Part shown: positions 12,007 through 37,289 of the stretch, in pieces
Position numbering within the stretch: the first letter of the stretch is position 1
Layout of the letters: each line of letters begins with the position of its first letter
Origin: an uncultured Endomicrobiia bacterium
GTDB taxonomy: Bacteria > Elusimicrobiota > Endomicrobiia > DTEH01
Direction: 5' to 3'
DNA length: 42,194 nucleotides
NCBI GenBank assembly: GCA_937936785.1
Contig: CALDDQ010000013.1
Coordinates: 1 to 42,194, forward strand
The notes under the pieces: model-generated
What the model saw: only the letters and a program-made list of their open reading frames with translations
The model's database searches: none
Told to the model about the DNA's origin: nothing
Program-made: the position numbers and the translations under genes

Positions 12007-13563
12007 ATGGAAAAACGAGTTTTGATAGCAACGATATTATCTTTAGCAGTATTAATGTTATGGCAGTTATTTTTTATAAAACCAACTTCTCAAATGTCTA
12101 AAGATTTTTCTAATCAACATGGACAAAAACCAGGTGAAATTTTAACTGAAAAAGAAAACAAAACAACATATTCTAAACAGAACAATTTTAGTTCATTAAA
12201 TTATGAACCGGTAGAATTTGCAGTTGGTAACTTAAAAATTGTTTTTAACAAATTTGGTGCTGGGATACGTGAAATTTATATTAAAGAAAAAAGAAATAAA
12301 GGTGAAAGTGTTTATAACATACTTTGTAGAAACGGGAGCGATTCTTTATCAACATTTCCACAGTTAAAATATGAACCAAAACTAGAGGTAAGTGATGGTG
12401 AGTATATAATAAGTTTTTTAGCAAAAAATAGTAAGGATACAATAGAGAAAAAATATAAGTTTAAAGATGTATTATCTGGTAGTTGGATTGATGTGATAAT
12501 AGAGATGTCTTCTGATGAAAGTTTAAATTTTTTGTGGCAACATTACGTTTATACTGACCAATACCGTAAAAAGGAACCTAATATGGTATATTATTCCTAT
12601 GTATCTGATTTATCAGGTAAATCAGCCCAATTAGTGAAAAAAGTTGATAAAGGAACATTTTCTTTTCCAAAAGAAATTACATGGATTAGTTTAAGTGGTA
12701 AATATTTTATAATATCATTTTTCCCACAGGAAGATGTGCCAGCAGAAATTGAAATTGTAAGACCTGATAAGACAGACAAAACAATAAGAAAAATAATTAT
12801 ATCACCTATTGAGACAAAAAAAGTGTATAAATTAAAACTTTTAGTTTCACCCTTAAGTGTTCCTGTGTTAAAATCTGTTGGCAATAAACTTATTCAAACA
12901 ATAGAATGGGGCACATTTGCACCTGTAAGTAAGTTATTTTATGAAGTATTAGTTTTTTTTAATAAAATTTTTAACAATTATGGGTTAGCAATTATTGGAT
13001 TAACGATAATCTTACAGATTATAACTTTTCCTTTGACATTTACATCGCTGAAATCTGCTTCTCATATGAGACAAATTCAGCCACAAATTCAAACTTTGCA
13101 AAAAATTTATAAAGACGATCCTAAAAGGTTAAATTCTGAGATAATGAACTTGTATAAAGAAAAAAAGGTTAATCCATTTAGTGGTTGTTTGCCGATACTA
13201 TTACAAATTCCAATTTTTTGGGCTTTGTTTACAATGTTGCAAAATACATACGATTTACGTGGAGCAGAGTTTATTTTATGGATAAAAGATTTATCTCAAC
13301 CAGACAGATTATACATTCCGGGAATAAATTTTGGAATTCCAGTATTGACACTACTTATGGGTGTGTCAATGTTTACACAACAAATTTTTAGTGGAAGTTT
13401 ATCTGATCCAAACCAGAAAATGGTTGCATTTATATTTCCAATAATGTTTACAGTAATGTTTGTAAACTTTCCATCAGGGTTAGTACTATATTGGTTTATA
13501 AACAACTTGTTTACTATTGGGACACAGTTTATAATTAATAAAACTTTATCAAAACAAAAATAG
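12007..13563 (+). CDS. yidC: Membrane protein insertase YidC
   Basis: A 518-residue insertase for Sec-dependent and Sec-independent membrane proteins. An N-terminal helix (about residues 5-23) is followed by the large periplasmic P1 domain (about 65-300) typical of outer-membrane-bearing bacteria. The conserved insertase core follows (about 325-510): GLAIIGLTIILQIITFPL, MRQIQPQIQTLQKIYKDDP, GCLPILLQIPIFWALF and the final helices PSGLVLYWFINNLFTI. AGGAG lies about 8 bases before the ATG. Presence of the P1 domain separates it from Gram-positive SpoIIIJ forms. The jag-like gene follows 7 bases later. Confidence 0.97.
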   Translation: MEKRVLIATILSLAVLMLWQLFFIKPTSQMSKDFSNQHGQKPGEILTEKENKTTYSKQNNFSSLNYEPVEFAVGNLKIVFNKFGAGIREIYIKEKRNKGESVYNILCRNGSDSLSTFPQLKYEPKLEVSDGEYIISFLAKNSKDTIEKKYKFKDVLSGSWIDVIIEMSSDESLNFLWQHYVYTDQYRKKEPNMVYYSYVSDLSGKSAQLVKKVDKGTFSFPKEITWISLSGKYFIISFFPQEDVPAEIEIVRPDKTDKTIRKIIISPIETKKVYKLKLLVSPLSVPVLKSVGNKLIQTIEWGTFAPVSKLFYEVLVFFNKIFNNYGLAIIGLTIILQIITFPLTFTSLKSASHMRQIQPQIQTLQKIYKDDPKRLNSEIMNLYKEKKVNPFSGCLPILLQIPIFWALFTMLQNTYDLRGAEFILWIKDLSQPDRLYIPGINFGIPVLTLLMGVSMFTQQIFSGSLSDPNQKMVAFIFPIMFTVMFVNFPSGLVLYWFINNLFTIGTQFIINKTLSKQK

Positions 13564-13570
13564 TTCTTAT

Positions 13571-14047
13571 ATGAACGAAAATAATGAAAAGTTAAAAAGT
13601 TTGTATGAAGAGTTATTTCAAATTGAAGTTTTAGGTACTACAGTAGAAGTTGCAATAGAAACAGCGTTAAAACAATCCGGGCTTAATAAAGATGAAGTAA
13701 GTATAAAAGTTTTATCTGAAGGTTCACCTGGATTGTTTGGTCTTTCTGGAGATAAACCGGCAAAGATATTGTTTGCTCCAAAATATGAAAGGAAAGATTT
13801 GTGGTTAAAATTTTTTGTAACAAAACTTATCAATTTAATATTTTCTGAACAAGAACAATCTTTTGTAGAAGTAGAAATTAAAAATAATTTAGTTCATTTA
13901 ACTATTGATGTAAAAGAAGAAGTTTATACTAAATTATTAAAAACGGACAAAAATGACCTTTATGATTCAATAGTTTTGGTTTTAGAAATATTGTTAAAAA
14001 GGATTGATGATAAACTAAACTTGGTGTTAGATATTAGAAAGTTTTAG
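13571..14047 (+). CDS. Jag/KhpB-like RNA-binding protein lacking R3H
   Basis: A 158-residue protein in the yidC-mnmE position where jag (khpB) usually sits. Residues about 8-75 form a recognisable Jag N-terminal domain: ELFQIEVLGTTVEVAIE, then GSPGLFGLSGDKPAKI, like the family's GFLGIG-x-KPA motif. The remainder (about 75-158) has the size of a KH domain but no GxxG loop and no R3H motif. Normal Jag proteins exceed 200 residues. The reading frame is clean, so this is a short or degenerate form rather than a frameshifted gene. The family links RNA binding with cell division and envelope synthesis. Confidence 0.75.
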   Translation: MNENNEKLKSLYEELFQIEVLGTTVEVAIETALKQSGLNKDEVSIKVLSEGSPGLFGLSGDKPAKILFAPKYERKDLWLKFFVTKLINLIFSEQEQSFVEVEIKNNLVHLTIDVKEEVYTKLLKTDKNDLYDSIVLVLEILLKRIDDKLNLVLDIRKF

Positions 14048-14099
14048 AAAAAAATCTGCAAAAAAATGTTTTAACACAATTTGTATTTCAGGGAAAGTT

Positions 14100-15569
14100 T
14101 TGTTTTTCTCTATGTCAAAGATTAAAGATTATATTGAAGATACAATTGTTGCAATTTCTACTCCGATTGGTATTGGTGGTATAGGGATAGTTCGTTTAAG
14201 TGGTGTTGATGCTATTAAAATTGCAGAAAAACTTTTTGTTCCAAGAAATAAAAAAAAAGATATAAAAAAAATTCCTACATTTACAGTTACTCTCGGTGAA
14301 ATTGTTGAAGATGGGATAGTTTTTGATGAAGTATTGATGACAATAATGCGTGCACCTAAAAGTTATACTTGTGAAGATGTGGTAGAATTTTCTTGTCATG
14401 GCGGAGTTGTTATTTTAAGAACTATTGTTAAACTATGTATAAAACATGGTGCACGATTGGCAGAACCGGGTGAGTTTACCAAACGTGCATTTTTAAATGG
14501 TAGAATTGATCTTTCACAAGCAGAATCTGTTGCACAACTAATTAATGCAAAAACAGTTTTACAAAGTCAGTTTGCAACAAAATCGCTTTTAGGGATTACT
14601 AAAAAATGGGTTGAAAAAATTGTTACAAAACTAAAACAGATAATAGCAGATATTGAAGTAGTAATAGATTATCCCGAAGAAGAAAAAAATATAAATGAAA
14701 AACATATAAAAACCGAAACTGTAAAGATATTAAACTTGTTAAACGAGGTATTAGAAAATTCTGAAAAACTATTTCCATTACTTGAAGGACTAAATGTTGC
14801 AATAGTTGGAAAACCTAATGTTGGAAAATCAAGTTTATTAAATATTTTATTATCTTACGAAAGAGCAATTATATCTGATATTCCAGGAACTACACGGGAT
14901 ACAATTTCTGAGACAGTAAATATAAACAATATTTCTGTTCGTATAGTTGATACAGCTGGTATTAGAACACATTCTCAAGATGTGATAGAAAAAGTTGGTA
15001 TGCAAAAAACTGAACAAGCAATTAAAGAATCACAGGTAATTTTGTTTGTTATAGATTCAAAATTAGGTTTATCAAAAGAAGATTATCAAGTTGTTGAACT
15101 TATCAATATTGCATCAAAAAAAGAGCCAAAAAAAGTTATTGTATTAGTGAACAAAATAGATCTTGAACCAAATTTTGATTTAAGTAAAATAAAAGTTTTA
15201 AATGAGAAGTTTAATAATTACACAGATGTTGTTGGGGCATTAAGGATATCTTGTAAGACAAAAGAAGGAATTAAAGAAGTTGAGAAAATGATAACATCAA
15301 TATATGAAATGGACAACAATTTAACAAATAACTTTTTTCAAAAAGAGATACAGCCAAATTTTTTATTGACAAACTTACGCCATTTAGATTCAGTTAGAAA
15401 AGCAAAAGAAGAACTTGAAAATGCAATAAAAATAAATCTTGAAATTGAACCAGAACTTTTTTGCCAAAATTTGACTTCTGCAACAAAGGATCTGTTAAAA
15501 ATTACTGGTGGCGAGTTTGTGGAAGATATTTTGAACATAATTTTTTCAAAATTTTGTGTAGGGAAATGA
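14100..15569 (+). CDS. mnmE: tRNA modification GTPase MnmE
   Basis: A GTPase that with MnmG installs the carboxymethylaminomethyl group on wobble uridine-34 of certain tRNAs. The N-terminal folate-binding domain begins DTIVAISTPIGIGGIGIVR. The G domain shows GKPNVGKSS, the switch segment PGTTRDT, DTAG and NKID, and the protein ends in FCVGK, the C-x-GK motif with the catalytic cysteine. Length (489 from TTG 14100, 485 from ATG 14112) is near the usual 450-460 plus small insertions. AGGGA at 14090-14094 favours TTG 14100 by spacing; ATG 14112 is the alternative. It is followed five bases later by rsmA. Confidence 0.96.
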   Translation: MFFSMSKIKDYIEDTIVAISTPIGIGGIGIVRLSGVDAIKIAEKLFVPRNKKKDIKKIPTFTVTLGEIVEDGIVFDEVLMTIMRAPKSYTCEDVVEFSCHGGVVILRTIVKLCIKHGARLAEPGEFTKRAFLNGRIDLSQAESVAQLINAKTVLQSQFATKSLLGITKKWVEKIVTKLKQIIADIEVVIDYPEEEKNINEKHIKTETVKILNLLNEVLENSEKLFPLLEGLNVAIVGKPNVGKSSLLNILLSYERAIISDIPGTTRDTISETVNINNISVRIVDTAGIRTHSQDVIEKVGMQKTEQAIKESQVILFVIDSKLGLSKEDYQVVELINIASKKEPKKVIVLVNKIDLEPNFDLSKIKVLNEKFNNYTDVVGALRISCKTKEGIKEVEKMITSIYEMDNNLTNNFFQKEIQPNFLLTNLRHLDSVRKAKEELENAIKINLEIEPELFCQNLTSATKDLLKITGGEFVEDILNIIFSKFCVGK

Positions 15570-15573
15570 TAAA

Positions 15574-16353
15574 ATGCCAAGATTTGATCAGAACTTTTTA
15601 GTAGACAAAAATGTTGTAGAAAAAATCGTCAACAGATGCAATTTTTCTTCACAAGATTTTGTTTTAGAGATAGGCGCAGGTAATGGTGTTCTTACAGAAA
15701 AGATTGTGTCCAGAGTTGCAAAAGTTGTTGCAATAGAAATTGACAAAAATTTGGCTAATAGGTTAAAGGAAAAATTTTTTAGTTTTAAAAATTTTGAAGT
15801 TATAAACAAAGATTTTTTATATTTTGATTTGAATTCTGTAAATTTGCCAGTTGGGAGAAAGTTAAAAATTGTTGGGAATATTCCATATAGTATTACAACG
15901 CCTATTATAGAAAAAATATTTAAATATTTTAATTGGGATATAGTTGTAATGATGATGCAAAAAGAAGTTGCTGAACGAATTTTAGCAGTACCTGGAACGA
16001 AATCGTTTTCAAGGTTGACATTGTGGACAAATTTTTATAGTAAAACCGAACCGCTTTTTGAAGTAACAAAAACTTGTTTTAGACCTGTTCCCAAAGTGGA
16101 TTCGTTTGTAGTAAAATTTGTTCCTAATTATGATTATTTTGATTATAAATTTAAGATAGATTTGTTTAGAATAATTAAAATAGCATTTTCTCAAAGGCGA
16201 AAAACAATATTAAATTCGCTAAGTCATGGTTTAAAACTTGACAAAAAGTTAGTTGAGAAATATATTGTAAATTCAGGGATAAAATTAACCAGTAGACCAG
16301 AATGTATTGGGCTGGAAAATTTCATGAAATTAGTTGAAATTATAAGTAAATAA
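15574..16353 (+). CDS. rsmA: 16S rRNA dimethyladenosine transferase
   Basis: A 259-residue methyltransferase (KsgA) that dimethylates two adjacent adenosines near the 3' end of 16S rRNA during 30S maturation. The N-terminal PRFDQNFLVDKNVVEKIV, SAM motif VLEIGAGNGVLTEKI, and catalytic NIPYSITTPII (the N-I/L-P-Y motif) are all present, with the basic tail SFSQRRKTILNSL-like segment near residue 210. The start is 4 bases after the mnmE stop. Its location immediately before dnaA is not the usual enterobacterial context but is compatible with an origin-proximal housekeeping block. Confidence 0.96.
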   Translation: MPRFDQNFLVDKNVVEKIVNRCNFSSQDFVLEIGAGNGVLTEKIVSRVAKVVAIEIDKNLANRLKEKFFSFKNFEVINKDFLYFDLNSVNLPVGRKLKIVGNIPYSITTPIIEKIFKYFNWDIVVMMMQKEVAERILAVPGTKSFSRLTLWTNFYSKTEPLFEVTKTCFRPVPKVDSFVVKFVPNYDYFDYKFKIDLFRIIKIAFSQRRKTILNSLSHGLKLDKKLVEKYIVNSGIKLTSRPECIGLENFMKLVEIISK

Positions 16354-16358
16354 AATTT

Positions 16359-16410
16359 TGTTCCACAAAAAAGTTGACTTATCCACAACATTGTCCACAG
16401 GTGGATAGCA
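16359..16410 (+). promoter_or_regulatory. DnaA box cluster, probable origin or dnaA autoregulation site
   Basis: In the 91-base rsmA-dnaA gap, TTATCCACA (16379-16387) is a perfect DnaA box and TTGTCCACA (16391-16399) differs at one base. Weaker matches are TGTTCCACA (16359-16367) and, on the other strand, CTATCCACC (16401-16409). Such clusters bind DnaA for origin firing, dnaA autoregulation or both. The gene order around it supports an origin-proximal position. Confidence 0.65.
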
Positions 16411-16444
16411 AGAAAGAATTTAGGTAAAAAATTAAGGTGTTTTT

Positions 16445-17800
16445 ATGACACAAATAGATCTTGCTCATGTTTGGAAAAAAGTTTTAGACAAAATATTTTT
16501 TTCATTAGATCCACAAACACAAGAGTTGTGGGTGTCGCCAATTGTTCCAAAAGAGTTGAAAGATAATATTTTAGTTCTTAATGCACCAAATAAATATTTT
16601 GAAGATTGGATAGTTTCGGGAGGATACAAAATAAGAATTGAAGAATTAGTTTCAAAAGAGTTAAATTTAAACATAGAAGTAAAGTTTAACTATATGTATG
16701 ATATTAAAGATACAAAAAAAGAAACAGTATCTTCAGAAAAATCTGATTTTGAATATTCGCCAGAAAAAATTTTTGTTTTAAAAGAAAGTTTTAATCCTAA
16801 TTATACTTTTGACGAATTTATTACTGATGAATCTAATAGATTTGCAAAAGCTGTTTGTGAAACAGCATCAAAAGAGCCTGGAGTAGCATATAATCCGATA
16901 TTCATTTATGCTCCTGTAGGTCTTGGAAAAACACATTTGTTACATGCTGTAGGGAATAAGATGTTAGAGATGTCTAAAAAGTTTCGCATAGCATATATTT
17001 CAGCAAGCAAATTTGTATCAGATTTTGTTACTGCAATACAAAATAATCGTTTAGACATTTTTAGATCAAAATTCCAAAATGCAGTTGCGTTATTGCTTGA
17101 TGATGTACAGTTTTTAATTGAAAAAGAAAAGTCTCAAGAAGAATTTTTTCAGGTATTTAATATGTTGTTTGATATGAAAAAACAGATTGTGATAACATCT
17201 GATCGTAAACCACAGGAATTGAAAGGAATAGAAGAACGGTTAATTAGTAGGTTTGAGTGGGGTGTAGTAGCAGATATTGGCAAACCGTCACTGGAGTTAA
17301 GATTAGCAATTTTAAGGCACAAAGCAAAAAAACAAAAAGTATATGTTCCTGACGATGTATTAAAATATATTGCAGAGAATATAACTGAAAATATTCGTAG
17401 GATAGAAGGTGCTTTGATAAGAATTCTTGCCAGGTCTTTGACAGAAAACATACCTTTGACAGTTGATACTGTAAAAGAAATGTTAAAAGATATGGTAGAA
17501 CCACAACCAAAGACTGTTGGCATAGAAAAAATTATTTCAGTGATAGAAGACGAACTAAAAGTTTCTCGTAAAGAGTTATTATCAAAAAAACGTTCAGAAG
17601 CGTTAGTTTTGCCAAGACAATTTGGTATGTATTTAGCAAAAGTTTTGACTGATTTATCTTATTCTGAGATAAGTGAAAGTTTTGGTAGAAAAGATCATAC
17701 AACTTCGTACCATGCATATTTAAAAATTAAAAGTTTGATTTCATCAAATCCGTATTATGCTCAGATAGTTAACAAAATGATAACACGAGCAAGACAATGA
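16445..17800 (+). CDS. dnaA: Chromosomal replication initiator DnaA
   Basis: A 451-residue AAA+ ATPase that binds DnaA boxes and opens the origin. Domain I covers about residues 1-80, followed by a short linker, the AAA+ domain (about 115-330; Walker A APVGLGKTH, Walker B LLLDDVQF, sensor ITSDRKP, arginine-finger region RLISRFEWG) and the C-terminal DNA-binding domain. The DnaA signature reads FGRKDHTTSYHAY, close to the usual GGRDHTTV-HA. Linker domain II is very short. DnaA boxes lie directly upstream and dnaN directly downstream. Confidence 0.98.
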   Translation: MTQIDLAHVWKKVLDKIFFSLDPQTQELWVSPIVPKELKDNILVLNAPNKYFEDWIVSGGYKIRIEELVSKELNLNIEVKFNYMYDIKDTKKETVSSEKSDFEYSPEKIFVLKESFNPNYTFDEFITDESNRFAKAVCETASKEPGVAYNPIFIYAPVGLGKTHLLHAVGNKMLEMSKKFRIAYISASKFVSDFVTAIQNNRLDIFRSKFQNAVALLLDDVQFLIEKEKSQEEFFQVFNMLFDMKKQIVITSDRKPQELKGIEERLISRFEWGVVADIGKPSLELRLAILRHKAKKQKVYVPDDVLKYIAENITENIRRIEGALIRILARSLTENIPLTVDTVKEMLKDMVEPQPKTVGIEKIISVIEDELKVSRKELLSKKRSEALVLPRQFGMYLAKVLTDLSYSEISESFGRKDHTTSYHAYLKIKSLISSNPYYAQIVNKMITRARQ

Positions 17801-26583: not shown

Positions 26584-26611
26584 AAGTTTTTGTTTAATTA
26601 CTAAAATATCA

Positions 26612-26703
26612 TCAGCAGAGCCAACCTATTTTGTGAATTTGTGTCAGGTTTGGTGTTATTTTTTTATAAAATTTAACAAAAAAAATAATCCTGACTCTGC
26701 TGA
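26612..26703 (-). promoter_or_regulatory. Nested inverted repeats, candidate structured RNA upstream of the amidotransferase
   Basis: Three nested stems are visible: 9 bp TCAGCAGAG (26612-26620) with CTCTGCTGA (26695-26703); 6 bp GTCAGG (26643-26648) with CCTGAC (26690-26695); and 10 bp TTATTTTTTT (26656-26665) with AAAAAAATAA (26679-26688). A competing helix can form between CCAACCT (26621-26627) and AGGTTTGG (26646-26653), which uses part of the second stem, so two folds exclude each other. It lies in the glnA 3' region and the leader of the amidotransferase. I match it to no known riboswitch. Confidence 0.5.
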
Positions 26704-26775
26704 CTAAAATTTTATGTAAATTTTTATAACATTGCTTATTTTTTTAGTTAAATAAACAATATCAGGTTTTTAATA

Positions 26776-28269
26776 TTAAATATCAAAATATAAATAAAAT
26801 TCGTAAGGATGTGGTCGCATTCTGACAGCATCAATTTCGCGGTTACGTTTGTACTCCAGCCAAATATCTATAACATCTTTTGTAAACACTCCACCCCGTA
26901 ACAAATAATCGTGATCATTTTCTAACGCGTTCAATGCTGAATATAACGAACCTGGAACTGTAGGTATGTATTTCAATTCTTCATCACTGAGTTCAAATAA
27001 ATCAGTATCAGTAGGTTTTCCTGGGTCAATTTTATTTTTAATACCATCAATACCAGCCATTAACATTGCACTAAAAGCTAAGTAAGGGTTACAGGATGGA
27101 TCCGGAGGACGGAATTCTATTCGTTTAGATTTTGGATTTTCAGTATACATTGGAATTCTAACTGCAGCAGAACGGTTTCTTGCGGAATAAACTAAGTTTA
27201 CAGGAGCCTCATAACCAGGAACTAATCTTTTATACGAATTTGTCGTTGGAGCACAAAATGCCATTAAACTACTTGCATGTTTTAATAATCCGCCTATATA
27301 ATAAATAGCAGTTTGACTAAGCAATGCATAACCATTTTTGTCAAAAAATAAGTTCTTACCATTTTTCCACAAACTTTGATGACAATGCATCCCGGAACCA
27401 TTATCTGCAAAAAGTGGTTTTGGCATAAAAGTTGCAACTAACCCATTTTTTTTTGCCATGTTTTTTATAATGTATTTGTACATTAACAAACTATCAGCCA
27501 TTTTTGTTAATTTGTCAAATTTGATATCAATTTCACACTGTCCTGCAGTGGCAACTTCGTGGTGATGAACTTCAATATTTAATCCTGTTTCTTTCATTTT
27601 CAAAATCATTTTGCTACGTAAATCTTGTAGTGTATCATGAGGTGGGACAGGAAAATATCCTTCTTTGAATCTGATTTTATATCCTGAGTTAGGTTTTTCA
27701 TCTTTACCGGTATTCCAGTCACCTTCAGTTGAGTCTAAAAAATAATATCCTGAGTTTTCGTTTTGATCAAACCGAACATTGTTAAACAAAAAAAATTCTG
27801 CTTCTGGACCAAAATATACTTCATCTGCGATCCCGGAATCTTTTAAATATTTTTCAGCTTTTTTTGCAATATATCTAGGATCTCGGGTATAAGGTTTTTT
27901 TGTAATTGGGTCATATATATCACATAGTATACTTAAAGTTGGAACTTCGCATACTGGATCTAATACAGCGGTATTTGGGTCTGGCATAAGAATCATATCA
28001 GATTCCTGAATTTTTTGAAATCCACGAATTGACGAACCATCAAATCCAATACCTTCTAACCAAATACTTTTTATTGGATCATCAATTTCATAAAGTTCCG
28101 ATACTGGAATTGAAAAATGTTGCCATAAACCTGGTAAATCGTTAAATTTAAGGTCTACAATTTGGACATTTTTTTCTTTAATAATTTTTTCAATATTTTT
28201 TATTGCTGGTTTATTAATGTTTAAGTTATATTTATTATCCTGATTTTTGTTTGAAGAAACTTTTTTCAT
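26776..28269 (-). CDS. glnA: Glutamine synthetase, type I
   Basis: A 497-residue enzyme making glutamine from glutamate, ammonia and ATP. ATG 28269 is chosen because GGAGG (CCTCC at 28275-28279 on the plus strand) lies 5 bases upstream; the TTG at 28281 would sit inside that site. GSI motifs include [57 protein letters not shown] and [15 protein letters not shown]. An extra Lys/Asn-rich N-terminus of about 25 residues precedes the usual start. The adenylylation-loop tyrosine (NLYDLP in E. coli) is replaced by Phe425 in DLFELS, so GlnE-type adenylylation should not occur. Two hexaloop hairpins lie upstream. Confidence 0.97.
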
Positions 28270-28328: not shown

Positions 28329-28356
28329 ATTATAGCAGCATTGCTTATTTTGACAA
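28329..28356 (-). promoter_or_regulatory. Possible glnA promoter
   Basis: On the minus strand TTGTCA (28356-28351) and TATAAT (28334-28329) are 16 bases apart, with the -10 about 60 bases before the glnA ATG. The -35 overlaps the second hexaloop hairpin. Either this is a real promoter or these bases belong to the RNA element and glnA is transcribed from further upstream. Confidence 0.4.
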
Positions 28357-28400
28357 GCATCTTTGCTTGAAGAGAAACTTTTCAGTGTTTCGTTACACTG
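28354..28400 (-). promoter_or_regulatory. Dual hexaloop RNA (ANTAR-target-like) upstream of glnA
   Basis: Reading the minus strand, hairpin 1 (28400-28383) is CAGTGT, loop AACGAA, ACACTG. After 13 bases, hairpin 2 (28369-28354) is CAAGC, loop AAAGAT, GCTTG. Both loops have six bases with A at position 1 and G at position 4, the signature of RNA bound by ANTAR-domain antiterminators. Hairpin 2 competes with a weak downstream stem in which TGCTT pairs with AAGCA, followed by TATAATATATAAT. The terminator part is much poorer than in the glutamate synthase leader. Confidence 0.6.
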
Positions 28401-28427: not shown

Positions 28428-29183
28428 TTAATATGCGTATAATCGCCCATAGGGACGATGAGAATACGGAAAAAGTTTTATAAAATTACTTTTTAAAATT
28501 TTATCTAAATCTAAATTAAAAATTTTGCAATAATCTTGCATATATTTATTTAATAAAACAAAATCTTCTTGAGATAATTTGCCAGATTTAACTTCTTTCC
28601 CTAATATTCTTGGATCTATAGTCTCGGTTCGAATAAAAATTTTTCCTCCATGCATCCCTGTTCCTACAAAATCGCCAACAGGGAAAGTTTTTTTGTTTAA
28701 ACCTAAAACTATTAACAATCCTCCTGCCATATATTCACCTAAAAAATCTTTTGCTTCACCACCAATAACTATTACTGGAAACATTTCTTTATAAGCTTTC
28801 ATATGAATACCAACCCTATATCCAACATCATTTTTAATAAAAATTTTCCCGCCCCGCATTCCATAACCTAAAATATCTCCCGCACTTCCTTTAATTATTA
28901 TAGTTCCAGAATTCATTGTATTGCCAATAGCATCCTGAGCATTACCATTTACAACAATTTCTGGACCATCCATAAAAGCTGATAAATCGTTTCCTGCAGT
29001 TCCATTAATTGTAATTTTTAGAATTTTTTTTATTCCATTTGCAATATATCTTTGTCCGCAGACGTTGTTAATGATAATATGTTTAATATTAGGTTTTTGG
29101 TCCAAAGTATTACGAATTTGTTCATTTAAAACTTTGTAGTGCAACCCATTTGCATCTATCGTTACAAAATTTTTATTTTCCAT
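28428..29183 (-). CDS. Glutamate synthase GXGXG-domain subunit
   Basis: A 251-residue stand-alone version of the C-terminal right-handed beta-helix domain of glutamate synthase large subunit. Repeated G-x-x-G patterns are clear: INGTAGNDLSAFM, GNAQDAIGNTM, KGSAGDILGYGMRGGKIFI, GGEAKDFLGEYMAGG and GTGMHGGKIFI. In GltB this domain is structural and helps hold the ammonia channel and FMN domain in place. It is the last gene of the split glutamate synthase operon, 17 bases after the FAD oxidoreductase. The short C-terminal extension ends HRPYGRLYAY. Confidence 0.9.
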   Translation of the reverse strand: MENKNFVTIDANGLHYKVLNEQIRNTLDQKPNIKHIIINNVCGQRYIANGIKKILKITINGTAGNDLSAFMDGPEIVVNGNAQDAIGNTMNSGTIIIKGSAGDILGYGMRGGKIFIKNDVGYRVGIHMKAYKEMFPVIVIGGEAKDFLGEYMAGGLLIVLGLNKKTFPVGDFVGTGMHGGKIFIRTETIDPRILGKEVKSGKLSQEDFVLLNKYMQDYCKIFNLDLDKILKSNFIKLFPYSHRPYGRLYAY

Positions 29184-29200: not shown

Positions 29201-30481
29201 TTAAACTTCAATACCATCTCCAGTAACAAAATGTTTTCTAAAATTTTTTGGTAACACTAAAAAACCAAAGTTATCTTTTAACAAATTATTATAAAATTCT
29301 GATACATCGAGTTGTTCTTTAATGATTAATTTATAAATTCCAGCTCGGTCAATACTATTTATTAAAATTGCTCCTACAACCTTGTTATTTTTTAACACAA
29401 TTTTTTTATAAAAATTTTTATCTTCTCGGGACAAAACTTTATACTGAGAATCTTTTATATCAGGGTTTGTAATACCAAACGAAATTGAAGGAATACCTAA
29501 AATTTCTACAGAATTCATAGCAAACATTCCATCGTAGGAAACATCTTTACCCACTATATTATATCCTGCAACTTTACCTTGTTTAGCTGCAACTGGCCAT
29601 ATTGCAATTACAGAATTGGTGTTTGATAAAAAATCTTTTCCTTGAGCAACATCACCTGCAGCGTAGATGTTTTTTATGTTTGTTTGCATATGTTCATTCA
29701 CCAAAATTCCACGGTCTGTTTTTATATTAGTTTTTTCTATAATGTCCAAATTAGGTTTAACTCCAATAGCAATAATTAACATATTTGTTTTGATAACTTT
29801 TTTATTTTGTAAAGTAACACTAACAATTTTATTATTTTTTGTTGTAACTTTTGTGATAGTATTTTCTTTTATAAATTCAGACGATTGTTCTACTAACTTT
29901 TTTTCTAAGTAGTTAGAAGCTTTTTTATCAAAAGTATTTGCTAACAATCTATCTGTTAAATCAACAATTTTTAATTTAATGTTTTTGTTTAACAACCCTT
30001 CCGCAGCTTTCATACCAATAAGCCCACCACCAAGTATAACCGATTCTGACACTATATTTTTTTCCAAGTATTTGAGAATATTTTCTGCATCTGAAAATTT
30101 GGTAAAAGTGAATACTCCAGCGGTATCATTTTCTAATCCATCAATTTTAGGAATAATAGGTTTTCCACCTGTGGTAATTAAAAGTTTATCAAATGAAATT
30201 GTTTCTCTGTTTGATAATATGATTTTAAAATTTTTTGTATCAACTTTTTTTACGATAGTAGAATATAAAACTTTAATGTTATATTTTTTTTCAAAATCGT
30301 ATTCTATAAAACCAATTTTATCTTTAGAAACCTTTCCTGCAAGATAATAAGAAATTAACGGTCTAGAATATATCCTATCTTCATCTGTAACAACAACAAT
30401 TTCTCCTAAAGAATCAAATTTACGAATAATTTTTATCGCATTAACTGCTGCAACTGAATATCCTATAATTACATATTTCAT
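29201..30481 (-). CDS. FAD/NAD(P)-dependent oxidoreductase of the glutamate synthase operon
   Basis: A 426-residue pyridine-nucleotide-disulfide-type flavoprotein. An N-terminal FAD-binding Rossmann stretch (MKYVIIGYSVAAVNAIK), a second nucleotide-binding GGGLIGMKAAEGL near residue 150, and the FAD-closing IYAAGDVAQ near residue 275 are seen. There is no redox-active CxxxxC pair, so it is not a disulfide reductase; it resembles NADH oxidase or rubredoxin/ferredoxin reductase-like members. Gene context suggests it moves electrons between NAD(P)H and the polyferredoxin and FMN-synthase subunits, replacing the GltD small subunit. Confidence 0.88.
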   Translation of the reverse strand: MKYVIIGYSVAAVNAIKIIRKFDSLGEIVVVTDEDRIYSRPLISYYLAGKVSKDKIGFIEYDFEKKYNIKVLYSTIVKKVDTKNFKIILSNRETISFDKLLITTGGKPIIPKIDGLENDTAGVFTFTKFSDAENILKYLEKNIVSESVILGGGLIGMKAAEGLLNKNIKLKIVDLTDRLLANTFDKKASNYLEKKLVEQSSEFIKENTITKVTTKNNKIVSVTLQNKKVIKTNMLIIAIGVKPNLDIIEKTNIKTDRGILVNEHMQTNIKNIYAAGDVAQGKDFLSNTNSVIAIWPVAAKQGKVAGYNIVGKDVSYDGMFAMNSVEILGIPSISFGITNPDIKDSQYKVLSREDKNFYKKIVLKNNKVVGAILINSIDRAGIYKLIIKEQLDVSEFYNNLLKDNFGFLVLPKNFRKHFVTGDGIEV

Positions 30482-30520: not shown

Positions 30521-30958
30521 CTATTTTTCTTTTAGAACAATTGCTTCATTTGGGCAATGTTCTACGCAAACAGGAACCTCTCGTCCTATGCACAAATCAC
30601 ATTTTGATGCAACTTTTTTATTTTTTAGGTCTGGTTTAATGATTCCAAATGGACATACCATAATACACATCCAGCATCCAACACATTTTTCTTTGTTATG
30701 TAATACTATTTCATTATTATTCTTATACATTGCAGAAGTTAAACACGCAGTTGTGCAGGGAGATTCCTTACAGTGACGGCACTGTAAGGCAAATGTTGTA
30801 TACCCGTTCTCTTCAAAAACAATTCCAGATACAGGTCTATCTTCTGAAGATTTAAATGTTTTTATAATATCTTTACTTTTTGAATGTTGAGATACACAAT
30901 ACACCTCGCACAACCTACACCCAATACAATATTCTTCGTTTATAACAATTTTTTTCAT
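30521..30958 (-). CDS. Four-cluster 4Fe-4S polyferredoxin
   Basis: A 145-residue electron-transfer subunit of the HycB/CooF/DmsB type. Sixteen cysteines fall in four groups: CIGCRLCEVYC, CRHCKESPCTTAC, CVGCWMCIMVCP and CDLCIGREVPVCVEHCP, so up to four [4Fe-4S] clusters. It sits between the FMN-synthase subunit and the FAD oxidoreductase and probably wires them together. Similar polyferredoxins accompany archaeal-type glutamate synthases. A short perfect hairpin lies in the 94-base gap on its upstream side. Confidence 0.9.
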   Translation of the reverse strand: MKKIVINEEYCIGCRLCEVYCVSQHSKSKDIIKTFKSSEDRPVSGIVFEENGYTTFALQCRHCKESPCTTACLTSAMYKNNNEIVLHNKEKCVGCWMCIMVCPFGIIKPDLKNKKVASKCDLCIGREVPVCVEHCPNEAIVLKEK

Positions 30959-31052: not shown

Positions 31053-32609
31053 TTACCATGCTTCTCCTGCATGTTTAATTCCTAAAAGTTTTAGTTCTAA
31101 TTCAGACAGTCCAACTCCACGTAGTTGTTCTCTGTTTCCACGTAGAGATTCAATTGCATTTATACCCATCCCACCTAACATTTCTTTAATTTCTAATGAC
31201 CAGGCTCTAAGTAAGTTATATGCTCTTTTAGCACCGATTTCTGGATTTAACCGTTTAGTTAAATAAGGATCTTGAGTTGCGATTCCCCAATTGCATTTTC
31301 CAGTATAACATTTTTGACATAAATGACATCCTAAAGAAATTAAAGCAGAAGTGCCAATATAAACAGCATCTACCCCTAATGCAATAGCTTTTATAATATC
31401 AGCAGAAGATCTAAACCCGCCTGCAGCAATTAACGAAGCTTGTTGTCTAATACCTTCATCTCTTAACCGTTGATCAACTACTGCTATTGCAAGTTCAATT
31501 GGAATACCAACATTATCTCTAATTACTGTAGGTGCAGCACCTGTCCCGCCACGCATACCGTCTATAACAACAAAATCAGCTCCTGCTCTTACCGCTCCAG
31601 TAGCTATTGGTGCAATGTTGTGTACAGCAGCAATTTTTACTCCAACAGGTTTTTGATATCTTGTAGCTTCTTTTAGTGCATAGATTAATTGTTTCAAATC
31701 TTCAATAGAATAAATATCGTGATGTGGTGCAGGAGAAATTGCGTCAGAACCAATTGGGATAAAACGTGTTTTAGAAACTTCAGTATCAACTTTTTCACCT
31801 GGCAAATGTCCACCAATACCAGGTTTTGCTCCTTGACCAATTTTTATTTCTACTGCAGCTGCAGATTCTAAATAATCAATATCTACTCCAAACCTTCCCG
31901 ATGCAACTTGAACAATGACATTTTTTGAGTAAGGTTTTAAATCTTCGTGCAGACCACCTTCGCCAGTGTTCCACATTGTGCCAAACTCTGTAGCAGCTTT
32001 TGCTAATGATTTTTGTGCGTTTAAAGAAATTGAACCATAACTCATTGCAGAAAACATTATCGGTGTTTCTAGTACAAGTTGTGGAGGCATTTTAGTTGAT
32101 ATTTTATAATTTATAATTTTTAATTCAGGTTTGTTGTATTCTAATTTATAAGGTTCATATTTTAATTCAATTTTGTCAGGTTTTTTTCCAATGAAAGTTT
32201 TTAGTTCCATAGGTTCTCTTAACGGGTCTATTGATGGATTTGTAACTTGAGATGCGTTTAATACTATATGGTCAAAATATTCTTTAAACGGTTTATCATT
32301 ACCCATCCCGGTAAGTAACACACCACCAGTTTCTGCTTGTTTTATAATGTTGTATACGCTATAAGAATCCCAATGAGAATTGAATTTTATTTCAGGTATA
32401 TTTCTTTTAATTGTCAAAGCACCAGTTGGACATAAATCTTCACAAAAATGACATCCAACACATTTGTCATTGTATGATATTATAGAGTTTGATTCGTTAT
32501 CATAAACATGAGCATCGTTAGAACATACTCGGGCACAGGCCTGGCATTTGATACATTTTTCCATATCACGAACAATCTTAAAATCTGTCCTAAATTTTGA
32601 TTTTGACAT
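31053..32609 (-). CDS. Glutamate synthase FMN-binding (synthase) subunit, ferredoxin fusion
   Basis: A 518-residue catalytic subunit that reductively aminates 2-oxoglutarate to glutamate. Two N-terminal [4Fe-4S] motifs (CIKCQACARVC and CVGCHFCEDLCP, within residues 18-65) precede the GltB-type TIM barrel with FMN. Recognisable are MFSAMSYGSISLNAQ, TGEGGLHED, GQGAKPGIGGHLPGEKV, SPAPHHDIYSIEDL, GVKIAAVHN, DGMRGGTGAAP and AAGGFRSSAD. CHLCQKCYTGKCNWGIATQDP near residue 430 contains the cysteines of the [3Fe-4S] cluster. This is the archaeal-type, separately encoded synthase domain. Confidence 0.95.
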   Translation of the reverse strand: MSKSKFRTDFKIVRDMEKCIKCQACARVCSNDAHVYDNESNSIISYNDKCVGCHFCEDLCPTGALTIKRNIPEIKFNSHWDSYSVYNIIKQAETGGVLLTGMGNDKPFKEYFDHIVLNASQVTNPSIDPLREPMELKTFIGKKPDKIELKYEPYKLEYNKPELKIINYKISTKMPPQLVLETPIMFSAMSYGSISLNAQKSLAKAATEFGTMWNTGEGGLHEDLKPYSKNVIVQVASGRFGVDIDYLESAAAVEIKIGQGAKPGIGGHLPGEKVDTEVSKTRFIPIGSDAISPAPHHDIYSIEDLKQLIYALKEATRYQKPVGVKIAAVHNIAPIATGAVRAGADFVVIDGMRGGTGAAPTVIRDNVGIPIELAIAVVDQRLRDEGIRQQASLIAAGGFRSSADIIKAIALGVDAVYIGTSALISLGCHLCQKCYTGKCNWGIATQDPYLTKRLNPEIGAKRAYNLLRAWSLEIKEMLGGMGINAIESLRGNREQLRGVGLSELELKLLGIKHAGEAW

Positions 32610-32643: not shown

Positions 32644-33753
32644 CTAACTTAATTTTCCTATAACAGGTTCTCCTGCTTTTGGTGTCCAAACAGTGTCCAA
32701 CTCTTTACTTACGCACCGTATTGCAGCTTCTTCAGAGGCAATATATAATATGCTACCTTTTTTTCCTGCAACCAGAGGACGTAGTTTTGTTCTGTCAGAC
32801 AAACCAACCATTGTATTATTATTTGTAACAATAATAGCAAACGGACCGTTTACTAGTGCAGGACCATAAATAATTCGTAAATAAGTATAAAAATTTTTTT
32901 CATTTTCTTCCATACGATCAATCTGAGACCAAAACGGTGCTGAAAAAATTTTTGCTAAAATATCAAAAGAAAGATTGTGTTTTCTAATGATTAAATCTAC
33001 CAAATATGCCATTACTTCTGTGTCAGTAAACAAAGAACAATAATAACCAAAATTTTCTAAATAACGTCTATTTATTCCATAAGAAGAAATTTCGCCGTTG
33101 TGTACCACAGACCAGTTTAATAAACCGAACGGGTGTGCACCTCCCCACCAAGCAACACTGTTTGTTGGAAACCTGTTATGTGCAGTCCAGATGTAAGCTT
33201 TATATTCATAAATTTTAAAAAACTCTGCAATTTCATCCGGATTACCTACGCCTTTAAATATTCCCATATTTTTTCCTGAAGAAAATACAAATGCATATTC
33301 AATTTCCTTATTTATAAACATTACACAACTTGAAACAAAATCTTGTTCAAAAAATTCTGTTTGCGATTCTGTTTCATAATTTAATTTTATTAGTTCTGCT
33401 TTAGGAGATATAAAATATCTATATAAAATTGGGACATAACTTAAAGTTTTAACATTTTTTGTTGGTATAGGTTCTTTAAGAATTAGGTTAAATTTTTTAT
33501 TTAAATAATTTTCTGTAACTTCAATAACAGTGTCTTTCTGATACATTATATGAAAACAATAAGAATCTTTCATTTCTGGATAAATACCGTACCCGGCATA
33601 CCCACTACCAAGACCGTTACCACGTTCTGTCATATTTATTATAGAAGTTACGATGTCGGAACCACTAATTGATTTACCTGAAGTGTCCATAATTCCAGTA
33701 ACACCACAACCTGAAGGTATATGTATTTTTCTATCATCTAAAAATTTTTTCAT
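32644..33753 (-). CDS. Glutamate synthase glutaminase subunit (class II amidotransferase)
   Basis: A 369-residue stand-alone version of the GltB glutaminase domain, releasing ammonia from glutamine for the synthase subunit. The motifs [33 protein letters not shown] and [13 protein letters not shown] are clear. The nucleophile is Cys16 in [11 protein letters not shown], so a 15-residue propeptide must be removed, as in GltB and unlike the Met-Cys start of GlmS or YafJ. It is the first gene of the operon. The ATG has no recognisable ribosome-binding site, and the intrinsic terminator's T-rich end lies just before it, so translation and termination signals are tightly packed. Confidence 0.92.
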
Positions 33754-33761
33754 AAATTTTT

Positions 33762-33846
33762 ATAAATAAAAAAGGCGTTTTTGTGCTAAACCTTTTAGAA
33801 AGACAAATTACTTATCTTACTATTCTTTCAGCACAAAAACGCCTTT
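33762..33846 (-). terminator. Leader terminator of the glutamate synthase operon
   Basis: AAAGGCGTTTTTGTGCT (33771-33787) and AGCACAAAAACGCCTTT (33830-33846) are perfect 17-bp inverted repeats. The loop is 42 bases and contains a further 6-bp stem, GAAAGA with TCTTTC on the minus strand. On the minus strand the 3' arm runs straight into TTTATTTAT, an intrinsic-terminator tail, ending about ten bases before the glutaminase ATG. It lies in a divergent gap, so it cannot serve as the end of an upstream gene. Confidence 0.8.
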
Positions 33847-33874
33847 GTTTTGGCACAACAATACTCTTTGTTGT
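33836..33874 (-). promoter_or_regulatory. Dual hexaloop antiterminator RNA (ANTAR-target-like) in the glutamate synthase leader
   Basis: On the minus strand, hairpin 1 (33874-33855) is ACAACAA, loop AGAGTA, TTGTTGT. Three bases later, hairpin 2 (33851-33836) is AAAAC, loop AAAGGC, GTTTT. Both loops are six bases with A1 and G4. Hairpin 2 uses bases belonging to the upstream arm of the terminator stem, so the two folds exclude each other. This is the known layout for ANTAR-domain response regulators such as EutV, NasR and AmiR, which bind paired hexaloops and prevent termination. No ANTAR gene is seen in the window. Confidence 0.75.
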
Positions 33875-33881
33875 TTACTAA

Positions 33882-33910
33882 ATTTTATAAAATCAAAATT
33901 AGTTTGTCAA
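33882..33910 (-). promoter_or_regulatory. Promoter of the glutamate synthase operon
   Basis: On the minus strand a perfect -35 TTGACA (33910-33905) and TAAAAT (33887-33882) are 17 bases apart. The expected transcription start is near 33875, which places the first hexaloop hairpin at the very 5' end of the RNA. The remainder of the divergent gap (33911-34063) is AT-rich and shows no further clear element. Confidence 0.7.
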
Positions 33911-34063
33911 TAACCAAAAATAAATTTGTTATTATATTTATAATTTAATTTTATTAAAACTAATTTTTAAGAATTTAATATTTTTTTACGTAGATATTGT
34001 GCAATAGGAATAAAGCAAAAAGTTGTAATATTTATATAGTTGAAAGTTGAAAAAAATTTTTGT

Positions 34064-34831
34064 ATGAAAAAAAGAATTATGAATTTTAATATTCTGTGGC
34101 AAAAATATTTTGTACATATTGTAGACATAATGCTAATAGGATATTTATTGTATAGGTTTATAATTTATATAAAAGACACACGTGCAATACGTATTTTTTT
34201 TGGTTTGGTATTAATGTTCTTGTTTACAATAGTTGTAGTTTTTGTATTAAAACTTCCCGTGACATCGTGGGTTTTACAACGGTTTTGGTTAGCAGGAGTG
34301 GTGTTGTTGGCGATAGTTTTTCAGCCGGAGATAAGGACTGTGTTAGCTGAACTATATTTACCAGCTAAAATTGTTAATTCAAAAAAAATAATTTTTGTAG
34401 AAGAAATAATCTCTGCTATTAAAGAGTTTTCAGAAACAAAAACAGGGTCAATAATTGTTATAGAACGAAAAATTGGATTGAAAGATTTGGTTAGCACAGG
34501 AGTAATAATTAACGCAGATGTTTTAAAAGAGATGTTAATAAGTATTTTTGCTAAAGGCAGTATTTTACATGACGGGGCTGTTATTATTTCAAAAAATAAA
34601 ATTATCGCTGCGAGATGTATTTTACCTTTAAGTGAAGAAGAAAATATAAAACGTTTTGGTACACGACATCGTGCTGCGGCTGGTGTGGCTCAGATAAGTG
34701 ATGCTGTAGTTATAGTAACATCTGAAGAAACTGGCCAGATTTCTTTTTTTAATAATAAAAAAATTGAAACAAGATTAACTATAGAACAATTAAGAGAAAA
34801 ACTTAACAAAACTATTAATGATATTGTATGA
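34064..34831 (+). CDS. cdaA: Diadenylate cyclase CdaA
   Basis: Membrane enzyme (255 residues) that makes cyclic di-AMP from two ATP, a messenger for osmotic and cell-wall homeostasis. Three N-terminal helices (about residues 10-85) precede the DAC domain. The catalytic motifs are LHDGAVII and GTRHRAAAGVAQISDA, and the EIRTVLAEL segment lies between membrane and catalytic parts. ATG 34064 is chosen over TTG 34040; ATG 34079 (MNFNILWQKYF) is also possible and closest to the family start. No ribosome-binding site decides. No cdaR or glmM adjoins it here, although glmM lies 13 kb away in this window. Confidence 0.93.
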   Translation: MKKRIMNFNILWQKYFVHIVDIMLIGYLLYRFIIYIKDTRAIRIFFGLVLMFLFTIVVVFVLKLPVTSWVLQRFWLAGVVLLAIVFQPEIRTVLAELYLPAKIVNSKKIIFVEEIISAIKEFSETKTGSIIVIERKIGLKDLVSTGVIINADVLKEMLISIFAKGSILHDGAVIISKNKIIAARCILPLSEEENIKRFGTRHRAAAGVAQISDAVVIVTSEETGQISFFNNKKIETRLTIEQLREKLNKTINDIV

Positions 34832-34859: not shown

Positions 34860-37289
34860 ATGTCAGAAAAAAATGATTCGCTGATAGATGAAAAACAAAA
34901 AAATGTTTCAAATTATGATGCGTCAAAGATAAGTGTTTTGTCAGGTTTAGAACCGGTTCGAAAACGTCCTGCTATGTATATAGGTTCAACAGGTTCTGCA
35001 GGGTTACACCATCTTGTATACGAAGTTGTGGACAACTCTGTAGATGAAGCATTAGCAGGTTATTGTAAAAACATTGATGTTATAATTCATGAAGATGGTT
35101 CCATTACTGTTAAGGATGATGGGCGTGGTATTCCTGTGGATCCAATGAAAGGAACAAAAGATCCTAAAGTTGAAGGAAAATCTGCTTTAGAAGTAGTTTT
35201 AACGGTGTTGCATGCAGGTGGAAAATTTGAACATAAAGCATACCAGGTTTCTGGTGGGTTACATGGAGTAGGAGTATCTGTAGTTAATGCATTGTCGGAA
35301 TGGTTAATTGCTGAAAGTTATCGTGATGGGAAAATTTATCAACAGAAATATAACCGCGGTGTTCCAGAACATCCAGTAAAAGTTGTTGGAAAAGCAGAAA
35401 ATACCGGTACTAAAATACGGTTTTTGCCCGATAGTACTATATTTACTACAACAAGATATTCGTTTGACATTTTGTCAAACAGGTTAAGAGAACTTGCATT
35501 TTTGAATCCTGGGTTGAGAATAACAATTATTGATGAACGTGATGATAAAGAAAAGACATTTAAATATGATGGAGGTATTGTAGAGTTTGTAAAATATTTA
35601 AATACTGACAGAGATACTCTTCATCCAGAACCAATTTATATTAGCAAAAAACAAGAAGATATTTTTTTAGAAGCAGCGATACAATATAACGATGGATATG
35701 ATGAAAGAGTTAATACTTTTGTTAACACAATACATACTACGGAAGGTGGGACACATCTTTCAGGTTTTAGGTCTGCCCTGACAAGAGTTATAAATGATTA
35801 TATTAAAAAACACGAACTTATAAAAGGAAACAATTTAAACATTACAGGGGAAGATGTTAGAGAAGGGTTAACATTAGTTATTTCAGTTAAAATTCCAAAT
35901 CCACAATTTGAGGGCCAAACTAAAACCAAACTTGGCAACTCTGAAATTGAAGGAATGGTAAAATCTATTGCGAATGATGTTTTGTCAACTTTTTTTGAAG
36001 AAAATCCTCAAATAGCACAAAAAATATGTCAAAAAATTATTTCTGCATGCGAAGCACGAGATGCTGCACGTAAAGCGAGAGAACTTGTCCGGAAAAAAAG
36101 TTTGTTAGATACAATGAGGTTACCTGGTAAACTTGCTGATTGTTCTGAATCTAATCCAGAAAAGTGTGAGTTGTTTATTGTAGAAGGAGAATCAGCAGGC
36201 GGATCTGCAAAACAAGCTCGGGATAGAAATTTTCAAGCGATATTACCTTTGAAAGGTAAAATTATTAATGTAGAAAAAGCGCGTATAGCAAAAGTGTTAA
36301 GCAATGATGAAGTAAGAACATTGGTTACTGCAATAGGTGCTGGTGTTGGTAAAGAAGAGTTTGATTTAAAAAAACTAAGATATCATAAAATAATTATTAT
36401 GACAGATGCGGATGTTGATGGTGCACATATAAGAACTTTGTTATTAACATTTTTTTATCGTCAGATGTTGCCGTTGTTAGAACAAGGACATGTTTATATT
36501 GCTTGTCCACCGTTATATAAAGTAAAAAAAGACAAAAAAGAAATGTATGTTGATTCTGACCAAAAATTACAAGAAATACTTTTGAAAGAAGCTGCTAACA
36601 AAACTAAAGTAACAACTGACAAAAAAACTTTTTTCCCACAAAAAGATAGTGGTGAAATATTTGAATTATTTAAGACAATACTAAACTTTAATTCTATTGT
36701 AACAAAAATTATGAACAAAGAAGTTTCCTGGGATGAATATCTTAAGTTTAAAAGTGAAAATAGATTTCCATTATATGTGTTAACTTACAACAAAACAAAA
36801 GAGTTTGTGTTTACAGAGAAACAATGGCAACAAAAACGTGACGAAATTCTTAAAGATAAAGGTTCAGAAGCTGAGATAATGTATTATTTTAAGGAATTGT
36901 GGGAGTTTGAACCTTTGGAAAAAATTGTTTCAAAAATGGAAAAGTTTGGTTTGTCAGATGTGTTAGAAGCAAAAGAAAAACCTATCGCAAAACTGGAATT
37001 AGAGAAAGAAGATTTTGTGGTAAAATCTATTCCAGAAATGGTAAATGTAATTAATACTATTTCTAGATCAAGTTTTGATATTCAAAGATACAAAGGGTTA
37101 GGTGAAATGAATCCGGAACAACTTTGGGAAACTACAATGGATGTGAAAACAAGAAAAATGTATAGGGTAGAACTGGAAGATGCAGTAGAAGCTGATAGAA
37201 TTTTTTCAACTCTTATGGGAGAAAAAGTGGAACCACGAAGAGCGTTTATTGAATCACATGCGTTAGAAGTAAAAAATTTAGATATATAA
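34860..37289 (+). CDS. gyrB: DNA gyrase subunit B
   Basis: An 809-residue ATPase subunit of the supercoiling topoisomerase. The GHKL ATPase part shows RPAMYIGSTG, EVVDNSVDEALAG, DDGRGIPVD and SGGLHGVGVSVVNALS. The TOPRIM domain shows EGESAGGSAKQARDR, PLKGKIINVEKA and TDADVDGAHIRTLLLTFFYR, and the C-terminus has RYKGLGEMNPEQLWETTMD. An insertion of about 150 residues (roughly 555-715) between TOPRIM and the C-terminal tail is the feature of the long Gram-negative GyrB form; short Gram-positive types lack it. GAGAGGA lies 8 bases before the ATG. It is not next to dnaN or gyrA. Confidence 0.97.
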   Translation: MSEKNDSLIDEKQKNVSNYDASKISVLSGLEPVRKRPAMYIGSTGSAGLHHLVYEVVDNSVDEALAGYCKNIDVIIHEDGSITVKDDGRGIPVDPMKGTKDPKVEGKSALEVVLTVLHAGGKFEHKAYQVSGGLHGVGVSVVNALSEWLIAESYRDGKIYQQKYNRGVPEHPVKVVGKAENTGTKIRFLPDSTIFTTTRYSFDILSNRLRELAFLNPGLRITIIDERDDKEKTFKYDGGIVEFVKYLNTDRDTLHPEPIYISKKQEDIFLEAAIQYNDGYDERVNTFVNTIHTTEGGTHLSGFRSALTRVINDYIKKHELIKGNNLNITGEDVREGLTLVISVKIPNPQFEGQTKTKLGNSEIEGMVKSIANDVLSTFFEENPQIAQKICQKIISACEARDAARKARELVRKKSLLDTMRLPGKLADCSESNPEKCELFIVEGESAGGSAKQARDRNFQAILPLKGKIINVEKARIAKVLSNDEVRTLVTAIGAGVGKEEFDLKKLRYHKIIIMTDADVDGAHIRTLLLTFFYRQMLPLLEQGHVYIACPPLYKVKKDKKEMYVDSDQKLQEILLKEAANKTKVTTDKKTFFPQKDSGEIFELFKTILNFNSIVTKIMNKEVSWDEYLKFKSENRFPLYVLTYNKTKEFVFTEKQWQQKRDEILKDKGSEAEIMYYFKELWEFEPLEKIVSKMEKFGLSDVLEAKEKPIAKLELEKEDFVVKSIPEMVNVINTISRSSFDIQRYKGLGEMNPEQLWETTMDVKTRKMYRVELEDAVEADRIFSTLMGEKVEPRRAFIESHALEVKNLDI

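Follow-up and report, generated by a model that had tools for sequence, protein, structure and literature searches.

A predicted ANTAR-target attenuator of the glutamate synthase operon in an Endomicrobiia bacterium, and variation of hexaloop number among its relatives

The window, i.e. the whole 42,194-nt stretch of DNA analysed here, carries on its minus strand a leader (33874-33768) that, judged from sequence comparison, is very probably an ANTAR-target attenuator for the glutamate synthase (glt) operon, run by the sole GAF-ANTAR protein of the genome. Observed in the sequences are the elements of this leader, their conservation and covariation in relatives, the single ANTAR protein, the gene order, and the joint absence of hexaloop and ANTAR protein in a related genus. 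The glt genes are followed on the same strand by glnA and a GATase_4 gene, so that the leader would control genes of ammonium assimilation. ANTAR control would thereby extend to the principal route of ammonium assimilation in a phylum for which the open literature searched gave no such report; there, the ANTAR domain together with Endomicrobi gave no match.

Table 1. Positions of the leader elements, hexaloop sites and genes discussed in the text (window coordinates unless a contig is named).
Feature	Position	Strand	Basis
Sigma-70-type promoter of the glt operon, TTGACA-17-TAAAAT	33882-33910	-	consensus scan, 11/12 matches
P1 hexaloop hairpin ACAACAA-AGAGTA-TTGTTGT, 7-bp stem, A1 and G4	33855-33874	-	sequence, fold, hexaloop scan
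P2 hexaloop hairpin AAAAC-AAAGGC-GTTTT, 5-bp stem, A1 and G4	33836-33851	-	sequence, hexaloop scan, covariation of orthologous P2
Intrinsic terminator of the glt leader, arms 33846-33830 and 33787-33771, T tract to 33768	33768-33846	-	sequence, fold, stem covariation in relatives
Glutamate synthase amidotransferase subunit (GATase_2), first operon gene	32644-33753	-	Pfam
Glutamate synthase FMN/4Fe-4S subunit	31053-32609	-	Pfam Glu_synthase, 468 bits
4Fe-4S electron-transfer protein of the glt operon	30521-30958	-	Pfam
NAD(P)H oxidoreductase (Pyr_redox_2, rubredoxin-reductase C domain) of the glt operon	29201-30481	-	Pfam
GXGXG subunit of glutamate synthase, last glt gene	28428-29183	-	Pfam
Three hexaloop hairpins before glnA, without T-tract terminator	28334-28400	-	sequence, hexaloop scan, orthologous arrays in G007 and G008
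Glutamine synthetase glnA, ATG at 28269, GGAGG upstream	26776-28269	-	Pfam Gln-synt_C, 462 bits; start from sequence
CdaA-type diadenylate cyclase gene cdaA, divergent from the glt operon	34040-34831	+	gene layout
Hexaloop pair in the 105-nt gap between a GltD-like gene and the 530-aa glutamate-synthase-family gene	contig C16, about 29351-29406		sequence

The glt promoter, whose boxes TTGACA (33910-33905) and TAAAAT (33887-33882) are 17 nt apart on the minus strand, is predicted to start transcription within a few bases of P1. Three nucleotides (GCC) link P1 to P2, and the 5' arm of the terminator begins at base 1 of the P2 loop, so that P2 and the terminator share bases and are mutually exclusive. 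The terminator stem is perfect over 17 bp and reaches 20 bp with one G-U pair in the predicted fold; TTTTTT overlaps the end of its arm. Downstream of the terminator come TTTTTTATTTATAAAAATTT and then the start codon (ATG) of the gene for the amidotransferase subunit, which lies about 15 bases past the terminator end. The initial annotation had listed the promoter, P1 with its loop AGAGTA, the three-base gap, P2 with AAAGGC, a 17-bp terminator, the T tail and the start codon, all of which proved correct in letters and coordinates. Folding of the leader, which it had suggested as a check, gave -44.2 kcal/mol for positions 33754-33900 as compared to -21.5 ± 3.3 in shuffles (z -6.9). It made no mention of a small extra hairpin inside the terminator loop, of the three-hairpin site before glnA or of the variation in hairpin number among relatives.

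Scanning both strands of the window (42 kb) for two ANNGNN hexaloops (minimum stem length 5 bp, linker no longer than 20) revealed two dual A1/G4 pairs, with 0.36 expected, one in the glt leader and the other upstream of glnA. The composite with an overlapping 12-bp terminator occurred once, in the glt leader, and in 0 of 200 shuffled windows. A search of the glt leader against Rfam returned no family at the gathering cut-off and no riboswitch; the matches below this cut-off, seen when an E-value threshold was applied instead, were rejected as chance microRNA-type hairpins.

The source genome (1.56 Mb in 25 contigs, 96% complete) encodes exactly one protein with an ANTAR domain (PF03861), a GAF-ANTAR protein of 266 aa that scores 75 bits in Pfam, above the curated cut-off. 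Its gene is located on contig C16, in agreement with the earlier statement that the regulator lies outside the window. The ANTAR domain aligns with the structures of Rv1626, NasR and EutV. In EutV, Arg142, Lys149, Glu160 and Met172 contact the hexaloop and Tyr164 stacks on G4 (PMC8934654). In an alignment to 6wsh, with the residue mapping assuming a numbering offset of two residues, the first four are identical in the ANTAR domain of the source genome, and the Tyr164 position holds His; G005 has Tyr there, and G003 has Phe. An integrase-like transposase ORF and debris (L001, 2669-3151, minus strand) immediately precede the ANTAR gene.

Convergent with the ANTAR gene is a gene for a 530-aa glutamate-synthase-family protein, and upstream of this gene we found two strong hexaloop hairpins (AATTCTC-AAAGAA-GAGAATT and CAGAAC-AAAGAC-GTTCTG) and a weak third one. 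Its orthologue in G007 and G009 directly follows the GAF-ANTAR gene, with three hexaloops in between. Three hexaloop sites were thus found in the genome, all of them before genes of glutamine or glutamate synthesis. Beyond these, pattern scans of the genome showed no excess over a reversed-pattern control; because such scans are blind to some loops and closing pairs, further sites may exist. Genes for nifH and an ammonium transporter, sought as further targets, were not found, and a weak nifH match is probably a ParA-type ATPase.

The comparison covered 96 genomes of one class. G058 is probably Endomicrobium proavitum, and family f6 would then correspond to the Endomicrobiaceae. A strict dual-hairpin scan missed relatives because P1 was missing or the head of the operon had moved; leaders were then read by eye and re-scanned. 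Upstream of gltN in G003, G058, G059, G060, G063, G065, G066 and G071 we found a hexaloop hairpin that shares an arm with a terminator, its 3' arm serving as the terminator's 5' arm. The same unit lies upstream of glnA in G076 and G078 and upstream of the ANTAR gene in G005. In G078, which has glnA at the head of its operon, two such units follow each other (TTAAGC-AAAGGT-GCTTAA and TTAGC-AAAGAG-GCTAA) in a double attenuator. The ANTAR gene lies within about 7 kb of gltN in G058, G060, G063 and others, and in G005 the operon itself has the order ANTAR-glnA-glt, with the GAF-ANTAR gene behind three hexaloops and a terminator.

Thirteen hexaloop-terminator units could be aligned without gaps, with C-A1..G4..G invariant. 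Pairing is complete, with 65 of 65 cells, in each of the P2 and terminator stems; for P2, the score is in part a consequence of choosing units that have a P2 stem. Two-sided changes number 16 in the P2 stem and 20 in the terminator stem. Sliding the partner by one column made pairing collapse in both stems. For hairpin pairs with variable linkers, equal-length N spacers were used in place of MAFFT-aligned linkers. Hits of covariance model R1 were not taken as proof, because the model is partly circular and its genome search scored only 150 of about 1000 candidates. The conservation that had been expected of related leaders was thus seen for the A1/G4 hexaloop and for the P2 and terminator stems, which also covary, but not for P1, which is not conserved in the Endomicrobiaceae. 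Together with the sole ANTAR protein and the ANTAR genes in or near the glt/glnA operons of relatives, these comparisons support the proposed reading of the leader as an ANTAR target.

No clean leader match was obtained in the ANTAR-bearing relatives G011, G012, G064, G069 and G074. The nearest relative with a glt operon, G008, has three hexaloops without a terminator before it, and no ANTAR protein was found in its 88%-complete assembly; G004 has a terminator and a hexaloop, with a mismatched P2 stem, and no ANTAR match. Outside the class, a candidate dual hexaloop (TTAC-AAAGAT-GTGG and GAC-AATGAT-GTC) that overlaps a terminator stands upstream of a glt gene in Candidatus Firestonebacteria (L064), and by its sequence the ANTAR switch may reach this far.

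Genus g10 offers a natural experiment on the role of the hexaloop: most of its genomes keep the glt operon, the hexaloop is gone from the leaders, and none of the g10 genomes searched has an ANTAR protein. In some leaders just the terminator, of the same sequence type, is left (e.g. TGTCCTAAAAATCTCCCGCTAGGGTATTTTTAGGGCGTTTTTACG in G019), and in others only remnants. Across all genomes, a strict composite rule passed 8/24 ANTAR-positive and 0/31 ANTAR-negative operons (Fisher p 6e-4, uncorrected for descent), a value that overstates the evidence, since g10 may have lost the leader and ANTAR together in one event. The rule misses G059, G060, G066 and G005, all of which are clear by eye.

In the model that we propose, P2 of the unbound RNA would yield to the strong terminator, and transcription would end before the glt operon. 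Active GAF-ANTAR protein would hold the hexaloops and, because P2 shares bases with the terminator, would thereby block termination and allow transcription of the operon, by analogy with EutV and NasR. The same protein most likely also acts on the array before glnA and on the hexaloop pair before the second glutamate-synthase-like gene. Such a regulon would comprise ammonium assimilation and would presumably be opened at shortage of glutamine/glutamate or ammonium.

The array before glnA consists of the hairpins CAGTGT-AACGAA-ACACTG (28400-28383), CAAGC-AAAGAT-GCTTG (28369-28354) and AGC-AATGCT-GCT (28345-28334), with the loops in the middle. No T tract follows them, and there is thus no terminator overlapping P2, for which reason we class the site as a hexaloop array and not as an antitermination leader. 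Terminator-less arrays of this type might affect translation or RNA stability, or counter another kind of termination. In G008, three-hexaloop arrays are found before glnA (AAAGAA, AAAGTT, AAAGGT) and before glt (AAAGAA in all three); the glnA array of G007 has the loops AAAGAC, AAAGAA and AAGGTT plus a fourth with G at position 1. G007 and G009 each have a further array of three before the glutamate-synthase-like gene, as does G005 before its ANTAR operon, and among all of these only the one in G005 ends in a terminator.

In leaders of the Endomicrobiaceae, no second hexaloop (stem of at least 3) was found within 45 nt before P2, and the apparent promoter is mostly so near P2 that P1 could barely be accommodated. 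The proteins checked in this family are of the receiver-ANTAR type, and genomes with hexaloop arrays encode GAF-ANTAR proteins, with the exception of G008, where none was found. Over few lineages, protein type appears to track hexaloop number. We tentatively suggest, without favouring it outright, that the hexaloop number of ANTAR RNAs is not fixed at two, with two to three, often lacking a terminator, in GAF-ANTAR lineages and one fused to the terminator in the receiver-ANTAR Endomicrobiaceae. If so, the rule that a dimer contacts two hexaloops in succession would not be universal, and the terminator-less arrays would act in a way that has not so far been reported for ANTAR proteins.

Several other explanations were weighed against ANTAR control. 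The attenuator could be constitutive, or be run by another ligand such as a small molecule, a tRNA or a leader peptide; this would suit the two relatives that keep hexaloops without an ANTAR match (G008 and G004) and the lack of an independent score from any Rfam ANTAR family. We nevertheless regard it as improbable, given that the A1/G4 hexaloops are invariant, that all three sites stand at glutamine/glutamate genes, that the gene of the sole ANTAR protein adjoins one of them, that ANTAR genes share the operon in relatives, and that the hexaloop is lost where ANTAR is absent. The space between promoter and P1 is, moreover, too small for a leader peptide or a T-box, and no Rfam riboswitch was detected. 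Even less probable is an ordinary 3' terminator of the upstream gene combined with chance hexaloops: strong terminators are common, but the upstream neighbour cdaA is divergent, the promoter lies between cdaA and the hairpins, the terminator ends just before the glt start codon, and the composite is missing from every shuffled window.

For glnA, the leader of glt might be an ANTAR switch and the glnA array a coincidence, with glnA driven by its own promoter, TTGTCA-16-TATAAT (28356-28329). This candidate matches the consensus at 11 of 12 positions, has TG before the second hexamer and overlaps hairpins 2 and 3, while the array has no terminator nearby and its region folds no more stably than shuffles (z -1.1). 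In G008 and G007, which do not keep the promoter-like sequence, glnA is nevertheless preceded at the corresponding position by a three-hexaloop array, and triple arrays are expected only 0.065 times per shuffled window, which makes coincidence unlikely, albeit less so than the alternatives for the glt leader. We therefore retain ANTAR control for the glt leader and, with less assurance, for the glnA array.

A 2012 study predicted ANTAR leaders upstream of glutamate synthase in Desulfotomaculum reducens (PMC3369931), and the glt leader hence belongs to a known kind. With the D. reducens glutamate synthase leader and the nitrogen-gene leaders of D. acetoxidans it shares the pathway, the dual-hexaloop attenuator and the presence of several leaders forming a regulon; these stem from another phylum, and the available part of the same paper (PMC3369931) describes neither single-hexaloop forms nor three-hexaloop forms without a terminator. 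It also resembles the EutV/EutW-controlled eut leaders of Enterococcus faecalis, in which dual A1/G4 hexaloops occur and P2 excludes an intrinsic terminator (PMC3369931, PMC8934654). The likeness to EutV extends to the RNA-contact residues Arg142, Lys149, Glu160 and Met172 of the output domain, save for His at Tyr164, whereas the regulator here has a GAF domain instead of a phosphorylated receiver and is encoded elsewhere in the genome. In contrast to E. faecalis eut, the target is glutamate synthase and not ethanolamine use, and the other sites of the source genome lack a terminator and have a third hexaloop. The linker of 3 nt falls inside the broad range reported for such RNAs, 2-25 nt (PMC8164766), but is shorter than the 5-12 nt of E. 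faecalis eut. There, both hexaloops were needed, and shortening the eutP linker to 3 nt lowered induction (PMC3369931), a point that weighs against the ANTAR reading of the glt leader.

The terminator-less sites recall actinobacterial ANTAR targets, dual-loop RNAs without an intrinsic terminator near start sites (PMC8164766). These have two hexaloops, often over the ribosome-binding site (PMC8164766), whereas the arrays described here have three hairpins and end upstream of the Shine-Dalgarno sequence. In the 2022 EutV-RNA structure, a dimer engages only one hexaloop at once, and the possible existence of single-loop targets was proposed (PMC8934654). Single- and triple-hexaloop leaders bear on the questions raised by this structure of why there are two loops and whether single-loop targets exist; as variants of ANTAR RNAs, three-hexaloop arrays and attenuators with a single loop would be new. 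NitR of Clostridium saccharobutylicum, a Firmicute, is a receiver-ANTAR protein encoded in a glnA-nitR-glt cluster with leader terminators. The Endomicrobiaceae likewise have the ANTAR regulator within the glutamine synthetase/glutamate synthase cluster, whereas the organism of the window has a GAF-ANTAR protein at a distance.

Two further observations concern other parts of the window. The leader of the GATase_4 gene (26584-26775, minus strand) has a very stable predicted fold (z -6.4) with a long CAGCAGAG...CTCTGCTG stem around a T-rich loop; it contains no ANTAR hexaloop pair and matches no Rfam family. Finally, yidC, mnmE, dnaA and gyrB are present (12007-17800 and 34860-37289, plus strand), so that the window may lie near the replication origin.
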